Below, piece after piece: positions 2,435 to 21,284 of a stretch of 33,386 nt of DNA. Where the stretch lies: contig JACQEG010000017.1 of assembly GCA_016200665.1 (NCBI GenBank), positions 1-33,386 of the forward strand. The letters run 5' to 3'. The notes below the pieces were generated by a model, which saw only the letters and a program-made list of their open reading frames with translations, did not search any database and was not told the DNA's origin. The first letter of the stretch is position 1. The number at the start of each line of letters is the position of its first letter. A program made the translations under genes and the position numbers. Source of the stretch: Chloroflexota bacterium (GTDB lineage Bacteria > Chloroflexota > Limnocylindria > Limnocylindrales > CSP1-4).

Positions 2435-3286
2435 CTACGCGATGAGGTGGGCGGCGAGCTTCTTCTCGACGTACTCGATCCCGAGTGGCGTGATGTGTAC
2501 ACGGCGCTGATCGCCGTCGTACTCGATGAGCCTGTCCTTGTGAGCCTTGACGAGCACGTCCCGTCGATAGATCGACGGATTGGAGTGCTCGACCGCCGTC
2601 ACTAGGCTCGCTTCGCTAACCCACCCAGCAGGCCCATAGAGCAGAAGTAGGGTCTGCTCCTTCATCGACATGCCCGGGACGAGCACGCGGCGCGTCGTCC
2701 CAATCGCCCAGACGGCAGGCACCACCCGCTCGACGAGCGCATCGACGACCGCGGTGGCCTCCGTCGTGGTGACGTTGTGGAAGATGCGGACGAGTTCGGC
2801 AACCACCCACTTCGCCCCGGCGAGGACGAGCGTCGCGTCCATGTGGTTCGGATCAACGTCGTCTCCGGCGTGTCCCACACCTCGGTTGTTCCTGATCTCG
2901 TATAGCGCCATCATCACCCGTGGCGTGGTGATCCGGACGCTCTGCGGGAATACCTTCTTGTCCGTCTTCTCGAAGTCAAAGCACGCGGTCTTGAAGTCGC
3001 CCGGCTTGCTCGGCTTCGTCGCCCACTTCCCGTCAACATGGCTGCGCAGGATCGTGTAGGCCGTCTCACAGAGCTTCCCGCCGTTCAGTTCCGACGGCTC
3101 CCACTTGTGCGCCGCAAAGTTCGTGGCGATTTCGTTCAGCGCCGCAAGCAGCGGATCGCGCAGCCCAGACGGGACCGTTCCAAGGATCGTCGCGGGCGTG
3201 ACCGAAGGCTCTGCCGCCGCGATCACAGTCGCGACGCGGCGACGAGGGCTAGGCCTTGGCCTTCTTCGCCGGGAGGTCGTGGTCAA
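2435..3286 (-). CDS. HEPN-motif protein with C-terminal winged-helix-like region
   Basis: 283 residues from a TTG at 3286, which has GGGGAG about 7 nt upstream and overlaps the preceding gene. A GTG at 3226 is an alternative that would remove the Arg-rich N-terminal 20 residues. The central region has RNNRGVGHAGDDVDP (R132 to H139), matching the R-N-x4-6-H signature of HEPN proteins, which in many families cut RNA in toxin or abortive-infection systems. The surrounding helices (ITTPRVMMALYEI; MDATLVLAGAKWVVAELVRI) fit the HEPN helical core. Residues about 205-275 (MSMKEQTLLLL, RRDVLVKAHKDRLIEYDGDQ, VHITPLGIEYV) read like a winged helix. It is co-transcribed with the gene upstream. RNase activity is inferred only from the motif; a non-catalytic HEPN scaffold is possible. 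Confidence 0.7.
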   Translation of the reverse strand: MTTTSRRRRPRPSPRRRVATVIAAAEPSVTPATILGTVPSGLRDPLLAALNEIATNFAAHKWEPSELNGGKLCETAYTILRSHVDGKWATKPSKPGDFKTACFDFEKTDKKVFPQSVRITTPRVMMALYEIRNNRGVGHAGDDVDPNHMDATLVLAGAKWVVAELVRIFHNVTTTEATAVVDALVERVVPAVWAIGTTRRVLVPGMSMKEQTLLLLYGPAGWVSEASLVTAVEHSNPSIYRRDVLVKAHKDRLIEYDGDQRRVHITPLGIEYVEKKLAAHLIA

Positions 3287-3872
3287 CGTGGTTCTCCCCA
3301 GACGGGGTGACGGTGATGTCGTCCATGTCTGACGTGTTGATCCAGCCCTTGGTCGAAGCAGTGACCTGGAGCGAGTTGCGCGGGTACGAGGGCAAGCGCC
3401 ACCCGGCCTCCTTGTAGGCCGTGTACACCTGGTTGACGTTGACCTTCCCGACCGCCACCTCCTTCTCGAGGTAGTAGACGGCGACGAGGTTCCGCTCGTT
3501 TGCGTTCTCGGGACTCTTCTCGCTCGCGAAGTCCTTGAACGCCTTCTTGCCCTTCGGGCGGAGGTTCAGCGTCTTGTCGAGGGTCGGCGCAGCGGCCTTG
3601 AGTCGAGTCGTGCCCTTTGTGGTGTCGCCGTTGTCCTTGGCAGCAGGGCGGCGCCGTCGCCGGGTTGTCCGTCGCGTCGTCGATGTCCCGCTGTCGTCTG
3701 CCGCTTCTTCGGCTGCGTCGCCGTCGTCCTCGTCGGGTGCCTCGGCAGGCGCAATGCCGAGCGCCTTGATCATCGCCCGGAATGCTTGAGCTTGCACCTG
3801 CTCCGACTTGAACTCATTGACCGCTTTCGCGATGTTGGGAATCTCGGACTTCAACCGATCGTACGGGTCCAT
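3249..3872 (-). CDS. Unknown protein, first gene of HEPN operon
   Basis: 207 residues. The ATG at 3872 has a clear AAGGAG 6 nt upstream. Three parts can be seen: an N-terminal helical segment (1-42); a linker that is strongly acidic (46-60) and then Arg/Lys-rich (67-90); and a C-terminal compact domain (about 120-200) with NLVAVYYLEKEV, VNVNQVYTAYKEAGWRLP and KGWINTSDMDDITVTPSG, which looks like a winged-helix fold. Its 3' end overlaps the candidate TTG start of the HEPN-motif gene, so the two are probably made together. A DNA- or partner-binding subunit or antidote for the HEPN protein is plausible. No family name is recognised. Confidence 0.75.
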   Translation of the reverse strand: MDPYDRLKSEIPNIAKAVNEFKSEQVQAQAFRAMIKALGIAPAEAPDEDDGDAAEEAADDSGTSTTRRTTRRRRRPAAKDNGDTTKGTTRLKAAAPTLDKTLNLRPKGKKAFKDFASEKSPENANERNLVAVYYLEKEVAVGKVNVNQVYTAYKEAGWRLPSYPRNSLQVTASTKGWINTSDMDDITVTPSGENHVDHDLPAKKAKA

Positions 3873-6988: not shown

Positions 6989-8182
6989 TTGACCCGCTTC
7001 GAGCCGAACCTGCGCATCCCCGGCCCGACCCCGCTCCCGCCGAGCGTCCGCGAGGCCGGGGCGCGCCAGATGATCAACCACCGCGGGCCGGACTTCGCGG
7101 GACTGCTGGGCCGGATCCAGGCCGGGATGCGGCCGTTCTTCGGCACGACGGGTGACATCGCCATCCTGTCCTGTGCCGGCACCGGCGGGCTCGAGGCCGC
7201 GATCGTCAACACCCTGTCGCCCGGTGACGCAGTCCTCGGTGTCTCGATCGGGGCCTTCGGCGACCGGTTCGCGAGCATCGCCGAGGCGTACGGGGCGCGG
7301 GTCGATCGGATGGCCGCCGAGTGGGGCTGGGCGGCCGCGCCGGACGAGGTCCGCGAGCGGCTCGGTCGGGGCGACTACCGGGCGGTGCTCCTGACCCACA
7401 ACGAGACGTCGACCGGGGTCATGAATCCGATCCCGGCCCTCGCCGCCGCCGTCCGCGACGCAGCGCCGGACGCCCTGATCCTCGTCGACAGCGTGTCGGC
7501 CCTCGGCGCCGTGCCGTTCGAGCTCGACGCCTGGGGCATCGACCTCGTCGTCACCGGATCGCAGAAGGCCTGGATGGCCGCGCCGGGCATGGCGATGGTT
7601 GCCGCCTCGGACCGCGGCTGGGCGGCCATGGAGACGGCCCGAATGCCGCGCTACTACCTCGACCTGCGGCGCCATCGGGCGAGCCTGGCCAACGGCGAGA
7701 CGCCGTGGACTCCCGCGATCGCGGTCGCGTACCAGGTCGAGGAGGGCGTCCGGCTCATGACCGAGGAGGGCCCCGCGGCCGTGTTCGGGCGGCACGCGGC
7801 CTGCGCGGCGGCGACGCGGGCCGGCCTCGAGGGCCTCGGCTTCGAGCTGTTCGCCGATGCGGCCAACCGATCGCTCACCGTGACCGCGGCGTCCATCCCC
7901 GAGAGCCTCGATTGGAAGGCGTTCAACGCCGAGCTCCGGGCTCGCGGGCTCATCGTCGCCGGTGGCCAGGGCCGGCTCACCGGCAAGGTGTTCCGGGTCG
8001 GGCACCTCGGCGCGGTGGCGGTCGACGACATCCTCGGCGCCATGGCGACCCTCGAGGAGGTCTCGATCCAGTTCGGGCGGGACGTCATGCCGGGTCACGC
8101 CGTCGAGGCTGCCGAGCGGGCGGCCGTCGCCGCCCACGGCGCAACGGCCGCTGCCCATGGCGCGGGTGCCGCCGTCGGATGA
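6989..8182 (+). CDS. Class V aminotransferase (serine-pyruvate / phosphoserine type)
   Basis: 397 residues, TTG start. PLP-dependent fold type I enzyme of the alanine-glyoxylate/serine-pyruvate aminotransferase family. The N-terminus RIPGPTPLPPSVREA is the family signature, followed by the GTGGLEAA cofactor loop, VDSVSALGAVPFELD (PLP-binding Asp and neighbours) and TGSQKAW, whose K193 should form the Schiff base. Length is normal. The stop overlaps the start of serA (ATGA), which overlaps the next gene the same way, so the three are translated together. In that setting a role as phosphoserine aminotransferase, converting 3-phosphohydroxypyruvate with glutamate to phosphoserine, is attractive. 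Serine-glyoxylate or alanine-glyoxylate transamination remain alternatives. Confidence 0.88.
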   Translation: MTRFEPNLRIPGPTPLPPSVREAGARQMINHRGPDFAGLLGRIQAGMRPFFGTTGDIAILSCAGTGGLEAAIVNTLSPGDAVLGVSIGAFGDRFASIAEAYGARVDRMAAEWGWAAAPDEVRERLGRGDYRAVLLTHNETSTGVMNPIPALAAAVRDAAPDALILVDSVSALGAVPFELDAWGIDLVVTGSQKAWMAAPGMAMVAASDRGWAAMETARMPRYYLDLRRHRASLANGETPWTPAIAVAYQVEEGVRLMTEEGPAAVFGRHAACAAATRAGLEGLGFELFADAANRSLTVTAASIPESLDWKAFNAELRARGLIVAGGQGRLTGKVFRVGHLGAVAVDDILGAMATLEEVSIQFGRDVMPGHAVEAAERAAVAAHGATAAAHGAGAAVG

Positions 8183-14773: not shown

Positions 14774-16864
14774 GTGACGAGCAGCGAGGGCAAGCCATCG
14801 GCGATGATCGACCGCATTCCGATGCCTGACAACCCGTCTTCGACGGTCCCGTCGAGCGTCGCGCTGGATCGCGCGGCGCTGACCGCCGGCGCGGGCCCGC
14901 GGGAGCCGGAGTGGCTCGTGGCGAACGGGCTCGGCGGCTACGCCTTCGGCCCCGTCGTTGGCGGCCCGGCCCGGACCTACCACGGGCTGCTGGTGGCCAC
15001 GCTCCGCCCGCCGGTCGAGCGAACCGTCCTGATCTCTGGGCTGGACGAGGCGGCCGGGGAGGTGCCGCTCGACGGCGCGAGCCTGGAGTCGTTCCGGCTC
15101 GATGGGATGCTGCCGGTCTGGCGACACCGCGTCGGCGGGGCGGTGATCGAGCGGCGCCTGTGGATGACCGCCGATGCCAGCGCGACCTCGATCCGCTACG
15201 AGCTCGTCGAGGGCTCGAGCCCCGTCGCCCTCAGCGTCGTGCCGCTCGTGACGATCCGCGACCATCACAGCACAACGGCGTACCCGGACAATGCCCGCCC
15301 GGTTGTCACGCTCGCGCGCCCACGTGTGGCGCGCGTCGCGCTCGTGCGACCGCAGGGTCCGGTCGTCCTTGCCGTCGAGGTCGGGTCCGGCTCGATCGTC
15401 GTGGAGGGTCCAGGGCTGGGGCGGTGGCGACGCAACCTCCGGCTGGCCGAGGAGAGAGCCCGCGGGCAGGCCTATCGCACGTCAGCCTTCGCGGCGCTCC
15501 GGATCGAGGCCTCGCTTGCGCCGGGCCGGTCCGTCACCGTCTCGTTCTCGGTTGACTCGGAGGCAGGCTCGCTCGAGGCGACCCAGGCCCGCCAGGCCGA
15601 GCTCATCGAGCGCGCCGGAGCGGCCGATGCCGCGCGACTCGTCGGCCAGCTCGTTCTCGCCGCGGACCAGTTCCTCGTCCGCCGGTCGATCCCGGCGCCG
15701 ACCCCGGAGGACCCGAAGGTGACGATCGTCGGTCGTTCGGTCATCGCCGGCTACCCGTGGTTCAACGACTGGGGCCGCGACACGATGATCGCCCTGCCCG
15801 GGCTGACCCTCGCGACCGGGCGGTTCGACGAGGCCGCGACGATCCTCCGCTCGTTCGATCGGTTCCGGCGCGACGGGCTGCTGCCCAACAGCTTCCCGGA
15901 TCGGGCCGGCGACGAACCCGCCTATCACACGATCGATGCGACGCTGTGGTTCCCGCAGGCCCTCGCCGCGTACGAGGCTGCGAGCGGTGATCGGTCGCTC
16001 GTGGACGCCCTGCTCCCGGGGATCTTCGACAGCCTCGAGCGGCACGTTGGCGGGACCCGCTTCGGGATCGCCATGGACCCCGCCGACGGGCTGATCCGGG
16101 GCGGGGCGCCGGGCCATCAGCTCACCTGGATGGACGCCAAGGTCGACGACTGGGTCGTCACGCCGCGGGCCGGCAAGCCGGTCGAGATCCAGGGCCTGTG
16201 GTTCAACGCCCTGTCCCTGGCCTCGCGCTGGCTGCGCGAGCGTGGCCGCGGGCCCGAGGCCGACCGCTGGGACGCCCTGGCCGACCGGGCGCAGGCGTCG
16301 TTCGCCGCGCGGTTCGTCTCGCCCGAGCGCGGGCATCTCGCCGACGTCGTCGACGGACCCGACGGCGACGACTGGTCGCTTCGGCCGAACCAGCTCCTCG
16401 CGATGTCGCTGCCCCACCCGATCATCGGCGGCGAGGCGGCCCGGCGGGCCCTCGCGACGTGCCGCGCCGAGCTGCTCACCCCGCTCGGCCTCCGATCGCT
16501 GGCTCCGAGCGACCCGCGCTACCGCCCCGCGTTCCAGGGCACGCGCCGGGAGCGGGACGCGGCGTACCACAACGGGGCGGTGTGGTCGTGGCTGATCGGC
16601 CCGTACGTCGACGCGGTGCTGGCGCTCACCGGCGATCGGGCGCACGCCCGCGACGTGCTGGCCCCGTTCGAGCGGCATCTGTCGGAGGCGGGACTCGGCA
16701 CGATCTCCGAGAACGCGGACCCCGAGCCGCCGTTCACGCCGCGAGGCTGCGTCGCGCAGGCCTGGGGCGTCGCAGAGGTGCTCCGCTGCCTTCGGCTGCT
16801 GGAGCTCCCGGAGCCCTCGGACGCCGCCAGACGGCGGGCGGGCATTGCGGTCAGCCGCGCCTGA
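14774..16864 (+). CDS. Glycogen debranching enzyme-like amylo-alpha-1,6-glucosidase
   Basis: 696 residues. GTG at 14774 has AAAGG 8 nt upstream; an ATG at 14804 is a close alternative. The N-terminal beta-rich domain begins with EWLVANGLGGYAFGPV and RTYHGLLVATLRP, typical of bacterial and archaeal debranching enzymes of this type. The C-terminal (alpha/alpha)6-barrel has WFNDWGRDTMIALPGL, HTIDATLWF, QLTWMDAKVDDWVVTPR, EIQGLWFNAL, YHNGAVWSWLIGPY and AQAWGVAEVLR. The Asp and Glu residues in these blocks probably provide catalysis. It should remove alpha-1,6 branches from glycogen or related alpha-glucans in the cytoplasm. No signal peptide is seen. It has no visible operon partner; its 3' end overlaps the convergent small membrane protein gene by 14 nt. 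Confidence 0.93.
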   Translation: MTSSEGKPSAMIDRIPMPDNPSSTVPSSVALDRAALTAGAGPREPEWLVANGLGGYAFGPVVGGPARTYHGLLVATLRPPVERTVLISGLDEAAGEVPLDGASLESFRLDGMLPVWRHRVGGAVIERRLWMTADASATSIRYELVEGSSPVALSVVPLVTIRDHHSTTAYPDNARPVVTLARPRVARVALVRPQGPVVLAVEVGSGSIVVEGPGLGRWRRNLRLAEERARGQAYRTSAFAALRIEASLAPGRSVTVSFSVDSEAGSLEATQARQAELIERAGAADAARLVGQLVLAADQFLVRRSIPAPTPEDPKVTIVGRSVIAGYPWFNDWGRDTMIALPGLTLATGRFDEAATILRSFDRFRRDGLLPNSFPDRAGDEPAYHTIDATLWFPQALAAYEAASGDRSLVDALLPGIFDSLERHVGGTRFGIAMDPADGLIRGGAPGHQLTWMDAKVDDWVVTPRAGKPVEIQGLWFNALSLASRWLRERGRGPEADRWDALADRAQASFAARFVSPERGHLADVVDGPDGDDWSLRPNQLLAMSLPHPIIGGEAARRALATCRAELLTPLGLRSLAPSDPRYRPAFQGTRRERDAAYHNGAVWSWLIGPYVDAVLALTGDRAHARDVLAPFERHLSEAGLGTISENADPEPPFTPRGCVAQAWGVAEVLRCLRLLELPEPSDAARRRAGIAVSRA

Positions 16865-17087
16865 GGTTCGCGACCGCCGCCCAGATCGTCATGAGGGCGC
16901 CGATCCCGGCCATGGCCGCAAGGAACACCTCGCCGCCGATCCACGCCGCCGCGGCCATGCCGCCGAACACGACCGCCATCACGACGGCGACGAGCGCCAG
17001 CCCGATCCGCTCGACCCATGGCCGGGCGCCGTCCGGCGCCAGCTCGGCCGGCTCGGCCGGCCGGCTGGGGTCGGGGTCCTCGCTCAT
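16851..17087 (-). CDS. Small two-pass membrane protein coupled to the PBP gene
   Basis: 78 residues. ATG 17087 overlaps the stop of the upstream penicillin-binding protein gene by 4 nt (ATGA), so the two are almost certainly co-translated. The first 25 residues are Pro/Glu/Asp-rich (MSEDPDPSRPAEPAE). Two hydrophobic segments follow at about 28-50 and 53-73, joined by a tight GGE turn, and the protein ends NLRRG. The positive C-terminus predicts both ends in the cytoplasm. No family is recognised. Its place at the end of an FHA-FtsW-PBP operon suggests a role in wall synthesis or division. The 3' end overlaps the convergent debranching-enzyme gene. Confidence 0.75.
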   Translation of the reverse strand: MSEDPDPSRPAEPAELAPDGARPWVERIGLALVAVVMAVVFGGMAAAAWIGGEVFLAAMAGIGALMTIWAAVANLRRG

Positions 17088-18592
17088 CCGTTCGCCCACG
17101 CCCGCCAGGCCCGGAGCAGCGCGCCGGCGATCGGGGCCGCGCGCGTCGAGCCATGGCCGCCGTGCTCGACGATGACCGCGATCGCGACCTGCGGATCGTC
17201 GGCCGGCGCGAAGGCGATGAACCAGGAGTGTGGGTCGCTGCCCGGATCGAGCTCGGCGGTGCCGGACTTGCCGGCCACCTGCAGGCCGGAGACCTGCGCC
17301 CCGGCGGTGTACTGGCGACCGAGGCTGCCGCTCACCGCGCGAACCATCGCGTCCCGAATCTCGCCCGCGACCTGCGCCGAGATGACCCGCCGGAGGACCT
17401 GCGGCGAGAACCCCGTCGTGCCGGCCTTGTTCGTGGCCGACAGCACCAGCCGCGGGGTCATGAGCACGCCGCCGTTCGCCACGGTGGCCGCCACCAAGGC
17501 CATCTGGAGCGGCGTGACCAGCGTCTCGCCCTGACCGTACGCCGCGTTGGCGAGCTCGACCGCGTCCTGGAAGCCACCGCCGAACGAGCCGCCACCGCCC
17601 GTCACCTGCGAGGCCGCCGTCGGCAGGTCGAATCGCAGTGGCCCGCCGAATCCGAGCTCGCCGGCAGTCGAAGCGAGCTGGTCGCCGCCCGTCCGGAGGC
17701 CGGCCTCGGCGAACCAGATGTTGCAGGAGACCTCGACCGCGGACGTGTAGTTGAGGGCCTTCGAGCCGGTCGCGGGATGGTGGCCGTCGCGGATTCGGAA
17801 GCCGTCGACGAGCAGCCCGGTCTTCTCGGCCGCAGGCTGATCCGGGAACGTCGTCGAGACGCTCACCGCGCCGCTCCCGAGGGCGGCCATCGACGTCACG
17901 ATCTTGAAGACCGAGCCGGGAACGTACGTGCCCTGCGTCGCACGCGGCAGGAGCGGCAGCGCGGGATCGGCCTGGAGGGCCTTGAACGCGGCGTTGGAGG
18001 TGGCCGGGTTGGCGACCTTCGAGGCATCGAAGTCCGGCGATGAGACCATCGCCAGGACGTCGCCGCTGCGCGGATCGAGCATGACGACGGCGCCACGATC
18101 GCTGCCGAGGAGCGTCGCGGCCTGCTCCTGGAGGGCGAGGACGAGCGTCGTTCGGAGCGCCTCCGGATCGTTGCCGCCGATCCGGAACTTGCGGGTCAGG
18201 TCGAACAGCGGATCGGCCGAGACCGCCCCGGTGAGCTCGGCGTTCCATGCCCGCTCGAGGCCGGCCTGGCCCCACAGGATCGACGAGTAGCCGATGACGC
18301 CAGACAGCGCCGGCGAGGCATACAGACGGTACGGCTCGCCGTTCTTGTCCTTGGCGTTCCACGCGAGCTGCTTGCCGTCCCGGTCGGTGATGACCCCGCG
18401 GACCGCATGGCGGGCAGCGGCGATGACCGCCGCGTCGTCCGGGGACCGGGCGAGGTCCGGCGACCGCAGGACCTGCCAGTAGCCGGCTCCGACGGCCAGC
18501 CCGCCGAAGGCGATCGCCAGCGCGAGGCCCACCCGGCTGAGGGCGAGCCCGATTCCGACGGTCCGACCGGCGACCGGCCGGGCGGCCGTCAC
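17084..18592 (-). CDS. Class B penicillin-binding protein (PbpA/FtsI-type transpeptidase)
   Basis: 502 residues, GTG at 18592 with GGAGG 5 nt upstream. A single N-terminal membrane segment (about 17-40) precedes a short dimerisation-type domain (RGVITDRDGKQLA) and the transpeptidase. All three active-site motifs are present: S227-VF-K230 in PGSVFK, S289-C-N291, and K442-SGT. It forms D,D-crosslinks in peptidoglycan outside the membrane, normally with the FtsW/RodA glycosyltransferase encoded just upstream. At about 500 residues it matches the PbpA proteins that accompany rodA in actinobacterial clusters; no PASTA domains are present. The start lies at the end of a 20-bp tandem repeat carrying two extra GTG mini-ORFs. 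Confidence 0.95.
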   Translation of the reverse strand: MTAARPVAGRTVGIGLALSRVGLALAIAFGGLAVGAGYWQVLRSPDLARSPDDAAVIAAARHAVRGVITDRDGKQLAWNAKDKNGEPYRLYASPALSGVIGYSSILWGQAGLERAWNAELTGAVSADPLFDLTRKFRIGGNDPEALRTTLVLALQEQAATLLGSDRGAVVMLDPRSGDVLAMVSSPDFDASKVANPATSNAAFKALQADPALPLLPRATQGTYVPGSVFKIVTSMAALGSGAVSVSTTFPDQPAAEKTGLLVDGFRIRDGHHPATGSKALNYTSAVEVSCNIWFAEAGLRTGGDQLASTAGELGFGGPLRFDLPTAASQVTGGGGSFGGGFQDAVELANAAYGQGETLVTPLQMALVAATVANGGVLMTPRLVLSATNKAGTTGFSPQVLRRVISAQVAGEIRDAMVRAVSGSLGRQYTAGAQVSGLQVAGKSGTAELDPGSDPHSWFIAFAPADDPQVAIAVIVEHGGHGSTRAAPIAGALLRAWRAWANG

Positions 18593-18632
18593 GACACCTC
18601 CGCGGCGGTCACGACACCCCCGCGGCGATCAC
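18582..18632 (-). repeat. 20-bp tandem repeat forming a ladder of GTGA stop-start junctions
   Basis: Two 20-bp units (18582-18601 and 18602-18621, 18 of 20 identical) plus 11 bases of a third. Read on the minus strand, each contains GTGA. The first GTGA holds the ftsW stop and a GTG that opens a 7-codon frame (MIAAGVS). Its TGA overlaps the next GTG, which opens a second 7-codon frame (MTAAEVS). That TGA overlaps the GTG of the penicillin-binding protein (MTAA...). Confidence 0.85.
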
Positions 18633-20077
18633 GGTGCCCGCCCGAGGAGAGGGCCGGACCGGCCGAATCGCCGTCGTGCCGCTGGCGGCGGCTTGATCTC
18701 GCGGCCCCGGTCGGACAGGGCGATGAGCAGGCCGACGATGACCGAGTTCGCGAGCAGCGACGAGCCGCCGTAGCTGATGAACGGCAGTGTGATCCCTGTC
18801 AGGGGGATCAGCTTGAGGTTGCCCGCGGCGATGATGAAGGCCTGCACGCCGATGACCAGCGACAGCCCGGCGGCGAGGATCGCCCGGAACTCGTCCTCCG
18901 CCGCGGCCGCGATCCGCAGCCCCCGCTCGATGAGCACGAGGTACACGCCGAGGATGGCGAGCACGCCCACGAGGCCCAGCTCCTCGCCGAGGGCCGCCAG
19001 CGGGAAGTCGGTGTGAAGGGCGGGGATCGGCGGCCGGCCGCCGATCGTCGGCAGGCCGTTGCCGAGCCCGGTCCCGAGAATGCCGCCGCGGGCGAAGGCG
19101 TGGAGAGCCTGGATGACCTGGTACCCGGAGCCCGCGGCGTCCGCGAACGGGTCGAGCCAGATGTTGACCCGATCCCGGACGACGCCGAACAGCTCGTACA
19201 GGACGGCCCCACCGGCCAGGAACGCCGCGACCCCGATCGCGACGTAGCTGACCCGCGCCGTCACGACGTACAGCAGCAGCAGGAAGACCAGGAAGAACAG
19301 CATCGCCGCGCCGAGGTCGCGCTCGACGACGACGATCCCGAGGGCGATTGCGAGCATCGCGACCATCGGCGCGAGGTACGGCAGTGGCGGCAGGCGGAGC
19401 GGCCCGACGCGGGTCGATTCCTCCACGAGCAGCGGCCGGTTCTCCGACAGGTAGCCGGCGAGGAACACGACGAGGATGACCTTGAGCAGCTCCGACGGCT
19501 GGCCCGTGAGCGGTCCGATCTGGAGCGACAGCCGGGCGCCGTTCACGTCCCGCCCGAACACGAACGTCAGCAGCAGGAGCGTCACCCCCGCCGCGGCCCA
19601 GGTGTACTTGTAGCGCCGCAGCCAGGCGTCGTTCCGGACCGCGACCGCCAGGGCCGCCACGATGGCCACGCCGATGAGCAGCCACACGAGCTGTGTCCTG
19701 GCGAGGCCTCCGAGGTTGCCGGCGAGCGACTGCGGCAGGCGTTCCATGAGCAGGAGCCCGATCCCGCCCAGCAGCCCGACCGCGGGCAGCAGCACCTGGT
19801 CGGTCCGGCGCCCGGCGAGGACGAGCAGGAGGTGCGCGACCAGCAGCGCCCCGAGGTAGGTCGCGAGGATCGCGACGTCGGCCGGGGCGAACAGCGTCGC
19901 GGGCGACGGCGTTCCGTCGCCGGCCGCGGCCAACCGCTGGGTCGCCCCGAGCGCGACGCTGCCGACGGTGATCGCGGCGCCGACGATGGCGAGCAGGCCG
20001 AGCTCGCGACCGCGCAGGCGCGGCCTGATGCCCCACAACGGCGCGGGCCGGGGACCCGCGGCGGCGCCGGCGGTCAT
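18629..20077 (-). CDS. FtsW/RodA/SpoVE family peptidoglycan glycosyltransferase
   Basis: 482 residues, ATG 20077 overlapping the fhaB stop by 4 nt (ATGA). About twelve membrane segments. SEDS-family marks are clear: GRDVNGARLSLQIGPLTGQPSE with the ELLKV that follows, VVERDLGAAMLFF, DRVNIWLDPF, GYQVIQALHAFARGG, HTDFPLAALGEELG and, near the end, ITLPFISYGGSSLLAN. SEDS proteins polymerise lipid II into glycan strands at the membrane and pair with a class B PBP, here the next gene. Elongation (RodA) and division (FtsW) roles cannot be separated from sequence alone; the pairing with a PbpA-like protein leans towards the actinobacterial RodA type. The Arg-rich cytoplasmic tail is ordinary. Confidence 0.95.
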   Translation of the reverse strand: MTAGAAAGPRPAPLWGIRPRLRGRELGLLAIVGAAITVGSVALGATQRLAAAGDGTPSPATLFAPADVAILATYLGALLVAHLLLVLAGRRTDQVLLPAVGLLGGIGLLLMERLPQSLAGNLGGLARTQLVWLLIGVAIVAALAVAVRNDAWLRRYKYTWAAAGVTLLLLTFVFGRDVNGARLSLQIGPLTGQPSELLKVILVVFLAGYLSENRPLLVEESTRVGPLRLPPLPYLAPMVAMLAIALGIVVVERDLGAAMLFFLVFLLLLYVVTARVSYVAIGVAAFLAGGAVLYELFGVVRDRVNIWLDPFADAAGSGYQVIQALHAFARGGILGTGLGNGLPTIGGRPPIPALHTDFPLAALGEELGLVGVLAILGVYLVLIERGLRIAAAAEDEFRAILAAGLSLVIGVQAFIIAAGNLKLIPLTGITLPFISYGGSSLLANSVIVGLLIALSDRGREIKPPPAARRRFGRSGPLLGRAP

Positions 20078-20526
20078 CCGCGCGGCCGGTCGACCCGGGG
20101 CCGCTCGAGCCGCAGCCTGACCTGGCCGAGCTGGAGCTCGTCACCGAACGCGACGGGCGCGAGGCCGGCGACCTGGGTCCCGTTGACGAATGTGCCGTTG
20201 GTGGAGTCGAGGTCCTCGAGATACCAGGCCCGGCCACGGTACGTCAGGGCGGCGTGCTGGGCCGAGGCGAAGTCATCCTCGATGACGATGGCGTTGTTGA
20301 CGTCGCGCCCGAGCGTCGTGACCGCGTCGAGGCGGAACGCGCTGCCAACGGGCGGCTCGCCGCCCGGCGAGGCGAGGACCACCAGCCGACCGAGCTCCGT
20401 GGCGGGCTCACGAGCGGCGCTCCGAAGATCCCGCACCAGCACCCGGACGACCGACCACAGGAAGACGTACAGCAGGCCGAGGAAGAGCAGCCGCACGACC
20501 CAGATGGCGAGGACCGTCGGATCCAT
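20074..20526 (-). CDS. fhaB: FhaB-like FHA-domain membrane protein
   Basis: 150 residues, ATG at 20526, 8 nt after fhaA. One N-terminal membrane segment (about 7-29) and a C-terminal FHA domain (about 48-137) with G73-R74 (LGRDVNN), S88-x2-H91 (SAQH) and S108-T-N110-G-T followed by VNG. These residues form the phosphothreonine pocket. In actinobacteria FhaB (FipA) is a target of PknB and links phosphorylation to wall synthesis and division. The gene overlaps ftsW, so a structural link to the SEDS-PBP pair is likely. No kinase is encoded nearby. Confidence 0.9.
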   Translation of the reverse strand: MDPTVLAIWVVRLLFLGLLYVFLWSVVRVLVRDLRSAAREPATELGRLVVLASPGGEPPVGSAFRLDAVTTLGRDVNNAIVIEDDFASAQHAALTYRGRAWYLEDLDSTNGTFVNGTQVAGLAPVAFGDELQLGQVRLRLERPRVDRPRG

Positions 20527-20534
20527 GGCGCGCC

Positions 20535-21284
20535 TCAGGCACCGGCCGCCGGCGGCTCCGGCGCGACCACCCGGAGCACGGACTGGCCGAGCTCGATCCG
20601 ATCCCCCACCCCCAGGACGACCTCGCGGACCCGGTGGCCGTTGACCCGCAGGCCGTTCGTCGAGCCGAGGTCCGTCAGGACGATGACCCCACCGCGGACC
20701 TCGAGCCGGGCATGGCGACGGGACGCGTGGGCGTCGGCGAGGACGACGTCGCAGTCCGTCCCGCGGCCGATCGTCGTCGGCCGTGACCCGAGCGTGATCC
20801 GGCGCGCGGCCCGACCCGGCTCCAGGACCTCGAGGGCGGCCGCCGGGCCGTGAATGACCGGGGCCTCGAAGACGCGCGTGCCGGCGTCGGGCCGGTCGTC
20901 CGCCGCGTCGCCCGCGGTCGGGGGTGAGAAGCGGGCGGTGACCTCGACGTCGCCACGGGCCAGCGCCGGATCCGCCTCGAGACTCACGCTGGGTCGGCTT
21001 CGGAGCATGAGGCCGTGGGCGCGAGCAAACGCAAGCGCCCCGGACGCCAGCTGCTCGGCCACGGCGTCGGGCGACCCGAGACCGATCAGGTCGTGGGTCG
21101 GGACCCGCACGACGAACCGGTCGGGGCCGATCGAGTGGACGCCGCGACCCCGCCGGCCCGACTCCATCTCGCGCTCGATGCGGCGCAGCACCTGGATCGG
21201 TTGGAGCTGGGTCCCGAACACCCTGGCCGTCGGTCGCTCGACGAGACGCTCGAAGAAGCGCTCGACGCGGGCCATCGGTCGCAT
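20535..21284 (-). CDS. fhaA: FhaA-like protein (DUF3662 plus FHA domain)
   Basis: 249 residues. ATG 21284 is chosen because a -10-like TAGGCT lies exactly 6 nt upstream, implying a leaderless transcript; an in-frame ATG at 21275 is the alternative. The N-terminal DUF3662 domain (about 5-120; RVERFFERLVERPTARVF, QPIQVLRRIEREME) is followed by a linker and a C-terminal FHA domain (about 160-240) with G173-R174, S188-RR-H191 and S208-T-N210-G. In mycobacteria FhaA binds phosphorylated MviN and helps regulate peptidoglycan synthesis. It is the first gene of the five-gene wall operon. All phosphothreonine-binding residues appear conserved. Confidence 0.92.
   Translation of the reverse strand: MRPMARVERFFERLVERPTARVFGTQLQPIQVLRRIEREMESGRRGRGVHSIGPDRFVVRVPTHDLIGLGSPDAVAEQLASGALAFARAHGLMLRSRPSVSLEADPALARGDVEVTARFSPPTAGDAADDRPDAGTRVFEAPVIHGPAAALEVLEPGRAARRITLGSRPTTIGRGTDCDVVLADAHASRRHARLEVRGGVIVLTDLGSTNGLRVNGHRVREVVLGVGDRIELGQSVLRVVAPEPPAAGA

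Follow-up and report, generated by a model that had tools for sequence, protein, structure and literature searches.

Neighbouring genes on one strand are most often joined in prokaryotes by a -4 nt overlap, in which the stop of one gene overlaps the start of the next and supports termination-reinitiation (PMC10666635). At the locus studied here, the junction between a SEDS gene and a PBP gene in an uncultured Chloroflexota bacterium, three such overlaps stand one behind the other, linked by two very short open reading frames (mini-ORFs). This raises the question of where such a ladder of stop-start overlaps comes from, and whether it is a device that sets the level of the PBP or a duplication that the operon tolerates. 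We analysed a stretch of 33,386 nt (hereafter the window) from assembly GCA_016200665.1, contig JACQEG010000017.1, and compared the junction with that of relatives, with similar arrays at other gene starts and with duplications of other lengths.

Results

The operon is on the minus strand and has the order fhaA-fhaB-SEDS-pbpA followed by a 78-aa ORF. Its first gene encodes an fhaA-like FHA protein (20535..21284; Pfam FhaA_N and FHA) and the second an fhaB-like FHA protein (20074..20526), whose stop overlaps the SEDS start as a plain ATGA (20074-20077). The 482-aa product of the third gene (18629..20077) had been labelled FtsW in the preliminary description. Its assignment to the SEDS proteins stands (Pfam FTSW_RODA_SPOVE, 2e-76; NCBIfam), but the narrower label does not, as the protein falls below the curated equivalog cut-offs of both FtsW (TIGR02614, 259 of 337.5 bits) and RodA (TIGR02210, 212 of 336.7 bits); we therefore write ftsW/rodA. 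The gene order fhaA-fhaB-SEDS-pbpA resembles that of the RodA-PbpA type. The PBP itself is of class B, a PbpA/PBP2-type transpeptidase of 502 aa (17084..18592; Pfam PBP_dimer_2 and, at 3e-59, Transpeptidase). Another plain ATGA (17084-17087) joins its stop to the start of the 78-aa ORF (16851..17087), for which no family matches were found.

The SEDS-PBP junction is built differently and reads, on the minus strand, ...ggcacc GTGA tcgccgcgggggtgtc GTGA ccgccgcggaggtgtc GTGA cggccgcc..., with GTGA at 18632, 18612 and 18592 and thus a period of 20. Three GTGA stop-start junctions within a 20-bp repeat had been described before, and both the sequence and TRF, run independently, confirm them. In TRF the array spans 18582-18633, with 2.6 copies of period 20 at 90% matches (score 83), so that the repeat is real and its span is one base longer than the 18582-18632 first given. 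Units 1 (18613-18632) and 2 (18593-18612) are identical at 18 of 20 bases and differ at two positions, and the partial third copy, which runs from 18592 down, matches at 10 of its first 12 bases. It is very unlikely that the array arose by chance, because three unit matches occurred in none of the shuffles of the window and the number of adjacent 20-mer pairs expected in the window by a binomial estimate is only 0.001 at period 20 and 0.06 over periods 8-60.

Read from the SEDS gene onwards, the ftsW/rodA stop (TGA 18631-18629, the ORF ending at 18629) lies in GTGA 1 (18629..18632) and overlaps the start of mini-ORF 1 (18609..18632), which has 7 codons (MIAAGVS*). The stop of mini-ORF 1 (18611-18609) lies in GTGA 2 (18609..18612) and overlaps the start of mini-ORF 2 (18589..18612), again of 7 codons (MTAAEVS*), which in turn stops (18591-18589) in GTGA 3 (18589..18592) on the PBP start. 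Both mini-ORFs were read from the sequence and returned by a chain-finding script. Each overlap has the RTGA form of -4 nt termination-reinitiation coupling, and the three stand in series. The PBP frame has no start between the SEDS stop and GTG 3 (18592), from which it reads MTAARPV..., and 36 nt separate that stop from GTG 3. The third copy corresponds to the PBP's own N-terminus (GTGACGGCCGCC, MTAA...), and the copied segment therefore probably derives from the PBP start itself. Two features had been missed in the preliminary description: the recurrence of such arrays at other gene starts, and a strong Shine-Dalgarno (SD) sequence in each unit, namely an SD-like GGGGGT before GTG 2 (18616..18621; anti-SD duplex -9.2 kcal/mol) and GGAGGT before GTG 3, inside mini-ORF 2 (18596..18601; -10.1 kcal/mol). 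The duplex at GTG 1 reaches only -6.3 kcal/mol. The RNA of the junction folds no more strongly than shuffled sequence (z -0.48).

For comparison, the same junction was extracted from three sources, namely 60 relatives, a set spanning the family and a public genome collection, and identical junctions were merged. A total of 87 junctions could be placed, and 83 of them keep a stop-start path. The PBP start directly overlaps the SEDS stop (RTGA or TGATG) in 76 of these 83. In the remaining seven, all inside the window's family, one or two mini-ORFs form the bridge (the window, L026, L027, L054, L073, L111 and L115); L026 and L054 share the 20-nt length of the first step. Of the four junctions without a path, L055 and L065 come from beyond the family and L091 and L117 are mis-anchored fragments, and no junction of an interpretable family member is left unbridged. 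The 14 genus-mates of the window showed no ladder, each of their readable junctions being a single direct overlap. The ladder of the window is therefore derived and recent, and mini-ORF bridges at the SEDS-PBP junction have arisen several times. The comparison of repeat number among relatives, suggested at the outset, thus sets a ladder in the window against one overlap in the readable genus-mates and supports the earlier proposal that an ancestral GTGA coupling was tandemly duplicated.

Similar ladders occur elsewhere. Three RTGA at a spacing of 20/20 are found in exactly two places in the source genome, the window and C76 (L124:6157-6200, plus strand), and the reversed RTGA pattern at this spacing is found nowhere in it. 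C76 carries a triple GTGA ladder of 20-bp units (MSHRQRP* then MSHGPRP*), unrelated in sequence to the window unit, that joins two membrane genes, the upstream one of which (582 aa, PMT_2 domain) ends in GTGA. A spacing of 17 adds two further ladders in the source genome, both of three 17-bp units on the minus strand: the first separates bioY from an MpaB-like oxygenase gene (C115; L276, about 3290-3350), and the second precedes a GreA-like gene upstream of which no gene of the same direction is clear (C93; L275, about 3180-3235). In another genus, an 11-bp ladder with 4-codon mini-ORFs lies between fhaB and rodA (L257:1501-1559; G034:C150), which in this type of operon is the junction next to the window's. 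Among 107 family genomes the pattern is present in 46 at period 20, 49 at period 17 and 39 at period 23, versus 26 at period 19. The ladder periods found (11, 14, 17, 20 and 23) are all of the form 3k+2, and the idea of a special role of period 20 was dropped, given that the four others occur too. Arrays of periods 17 and 23 were also seen outside clear coding junctions. A phylum-wide search returned no tandem 20-bp array at a clear coding junction among its first 30 loci, and the 383 genes called in 400 kb from five further Chloroflexota genomes included no start-spanning duplications, a sample too small for a claim of family specificity.

Some other arrays were noted alongside. At one gene start (L384, minus-strand reading, ~7219-7311; G018:C22), a 23-bp array with GCGA in place of the middle GTGA looks like a decaying ladder. 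Direct repeats of 11 bp and of the type RTGAGCGRCGG form arrays in several genomes (G007:C78, G007:C99, G008:C19, G010:C57, G014:C44 and G033:C95) that are possibly operator arrays and not ladders; the reverse complement of the repeat resembles PHO-box-like direct repeats. Five identical 22-bp units starting GTGAGGAGCC form a 3k+1 array at the end of a long ORF (L253; G070:C19:27353-27466).

The length of the duplicated segment should decide what becomes of a gene start. If a start region of 3k+2 bases is duplicated, the TGA of the next RTGA is in frame with the previous start and a ladder results; a length of 3k extends the gene in frame at its N-terminus; and a length of 3k+1 lets the copied start read out of frame beyond the real one. 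We counted tandem units with at least 65% identity at coding junctions in the first ~30 loci per period, which the tool chose identically for each period and not at random. Such units were present in 9/31 loci at period 20, 4/31 at period 17 and 1/30 at period 23, versus 0/30 at period 19, the cleaner control, and 0/32 at period 22, an imperfect control that also catches 11-bp arrays. Pooled, this is 14/92 for 3k+2 versus 0/62 for 3k+1 (roughly P = 0.001 by our own arithmetic). A scan that made no use of the RTGA pattern (0.97 Mb, with 715 genes called by a simple G+C-frame script) yielded nine strong start-spanning duplications, of which six have a period of 2 modulo 3, three of 0 and none of 1. 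All six 3k+2 cases are exact ladders, the window among them, and the in-gene control duplications of the same scan are all 0 modulo 3. The ladder rate outside the window, about 5 in 1,000 genes, is to be read as an order of magnitude only, because a second family sample (303 genes) contained no perfect ladder; its one strong case is a 46-bp (2x23) array in which the middle GTGA is GCGA. Both tests agree in suggesting that only 3k+2 and 3k start duplications are tolerated.

Discussion

We consider it reasonably probable that the ladder records a recent tandem duplication of the RTGA-bearing PBP start, that ribosomes pass it by stepwise reinitiation and that duplications of register-keeping length are the ones that persist. 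The PBP start region would have carried its RTGA stop-start overlap into each copy when it was duplicated. Because the 20-bp unit is of the form 3k+2, the TGA that begins one base into each copied GTG falls in frame with the previous GTG, so that every copied start opens a mini-ORF of 7 codons ending precisely on the start that follows. A ribosome finishing the SEDS gene would then terminate at GTGA 1, reinitiate and make MIAAGVS, terminate at GTGA 2 and make MTAAEVS, and terminate at GTGA 3 and start the PBP, with the SD in the unit aiding each reinitiation. In E. coli, reinitiation dropped by 80-90% or was lost altogether when the stop was shifted to 38 nt upstream of the start (PMC10666635). 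The ladder would keep the operon coupled over a 36-nt gap that would otherwise weaken coupling, as the mini-ORFs shrink each hop to an overlap. Across the family, slippage would duplicate start sites repeatedly, with 3k+2 lengths persisting as ladders and 3k lengths as extensions, and 3k+1 lengths only rarely. The fourth site of coding sequences is enriched in A (PMC5850271), and therefore many starts already hold the off-frame TGA that ladders need. Stepwise termination and reinitiation had been proposed in the preliminary description and is the reading that best fits the 3k+2 rule; we infer that ribosomes take the ladder steps and that the effect on the PBP level is small.

Alternatively, the PBP might be started independently at GTG 3 by the repeat-borne GGAGGT, with the mini-ORFs as bystanders and the duplication acting, if at all, through its SDs. 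The anti-SD duplexes at GTG 3 (-10.1 kcal/mol) and GTG 2 (-9.2 kcal/mol) are indeed stronger than that at GTG 1 (-6.3 kcal/mol) and than the median of direct PBP starts in relatives (-6.6 kcal/mol), and the SD of GTG 3 is strong enough for initiation of its own. However, an SD of -9 kcal/mol or better is present without a ladder at 19/61 direct junctions, and the SD in question sits inside mini-ORF 2. In many other ladders the last start lacks an SD (about 0 to -3 kcal/mol in L124, L125, L133, L135, L150 and L165); ladders thus do not depend on an SD, which was rejected as a defining ladder trait. An independent start also leaves the 3k+2 rule unexplained, and we regard it as unlikely.

A second alternative returns to the earlier suggestion of tuning, in that the number of units would be selected, or variable in the population, and would act as an adaptive rheostat of the PBP:FtsW ratio. 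Control of stoichiometry is plausible for a SEDS-bPBP pair, and several identical units, as expected of arrays still changing in copy number, are present in L133, L135 and L165, where they suggest that the duplication process is ongoing. On the other hand, the absence of ladders from the 14 genus-mates argues against a conserved tuning device, and other ladders do not extend past the nearest species and stand before unrelated genes. The L180/L181 ladder is common to two species with 96% identical downstream proteins and was not seen in five other genus members that have the gene (65-75% identity); likewise, none of six other genus members with a bioY-linked gene has the bioY-MpaB ladder, although two of these matches are partial. 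Ladder peptides are not conserved, and the ladders are lineage-specific and differ in sequence. We therefore judge the rheostat improbable for the window. About as doubtful is its generalization, in which ladders would be an evolvable class of expression control in the high-GC Chloroflexota of the family, slippage changing the number of 3k+2 units and each step shifting the reinitiation yield, to give a copy-number rheostat for operon stoichiometry. Ladders are short-lived, and recurrent start-site slippage with survival of register-keeping lengths fits better than a conserved regulator. Because the ladder is absent in the genus-mates, the others are lineage-specific and many have no Shine-Dalgarno, the comparison suggests a tolerated duplication, for which an effect of unit number on expression is possible.

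Although the assembly is fragmented and incomplete (175 contigs, 82% complete), an assembly or sequencing artefact is hardly credible, since the array is only 52 bp long, its units differ, its flanks are unique and similar ladders are present in many independent assemblies. Insertion of a dispersed MIRU-like element at the start codon would produce the same anatomy, a small ORF coupled by a -4 nt overlap (PMC12548453), but has next to no probability and was rejected: no homologous second copy of the tandem unit was found in the 423 loci or in the source genome (best other match E=0.002, not convincing), and each ladder read has its own sequence, which in the window is that of the downstream N-terminus (MTAA).

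The favoured reading, tandem duplication followed by stepwise reinitiation, would show how a genome absorbs tandem duplications at the start of a gene, its most sensitive place. A start codon followed by A already holds an off-frame TGA, so that a 3k+2 duplication would make each copied start a stepping stone, and this gives a simple testable rule by which 3k and 3k+2 are tolerated and 3k+1 is not. Ladders further suggest a natural source of ORFs of 4-7 codons that annotation misses, and they offer a natural series of junctions (0, 1, 2 and 3 steps) for measuring the efficiency of serial reinitiation. We found no description of short tandem start-site ladders in the literature searched, which most subscription journals lie outside.

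Comparison with known systems

Among natural systems the closest is the MIRU (mycobacterial interspersed repetitive unit; Supply et al. 1997, as described in PMC12548453), a start-codon repeat whose small ORF is coupled by -4 nt to the next gene and which sits between coupled genes with little harm; some MIRU-type loci form tandem arrays of variable unit number (PMC2734929). Mini-ORFs 1 and 2 of the window likewise close on the next start with a -4 nt overlap. In contrast, MIRUs are 40-100 bp long, mutually homologous, dispersed and apparently mobile, whereas ladders have units of 11-23 bp with sequences of their own and are undispersed; the 20-bp unit of the window is neither in the ~40-100 bp range nor accompanied by homologous dispersed copies. 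The MIRU lengths 77 and 53 bp are likewise of the form 3k+2. Another intergenic mini-ORF, mgtQ between mgtC and mgtB of Salmonella, controls the downstream gene by its translation and acts via mRNA structure and ribosome-destabilising acidic residues (PMC8092293), whereas the window's junction has neither a fold stronger than shuffled sequence (z -0.48) nor a conserved peptide. Each step of the ladder equals the commonest coupled junction of prokaryotes, RTGA (PMC10666635), and the difference is that the window has three overlaps in series via mini-ORFs and not one. The ladder also resembles the bicistronic design (BCD), in which a short leader cistron holds the next SD and its stop overlaps the next start, as mini-ORF 2 does with GGAGGT at 18596-18601; however, BCD is an engineered cassette with a single leader cistron, whereas the window stacks two at a natural operon junction.
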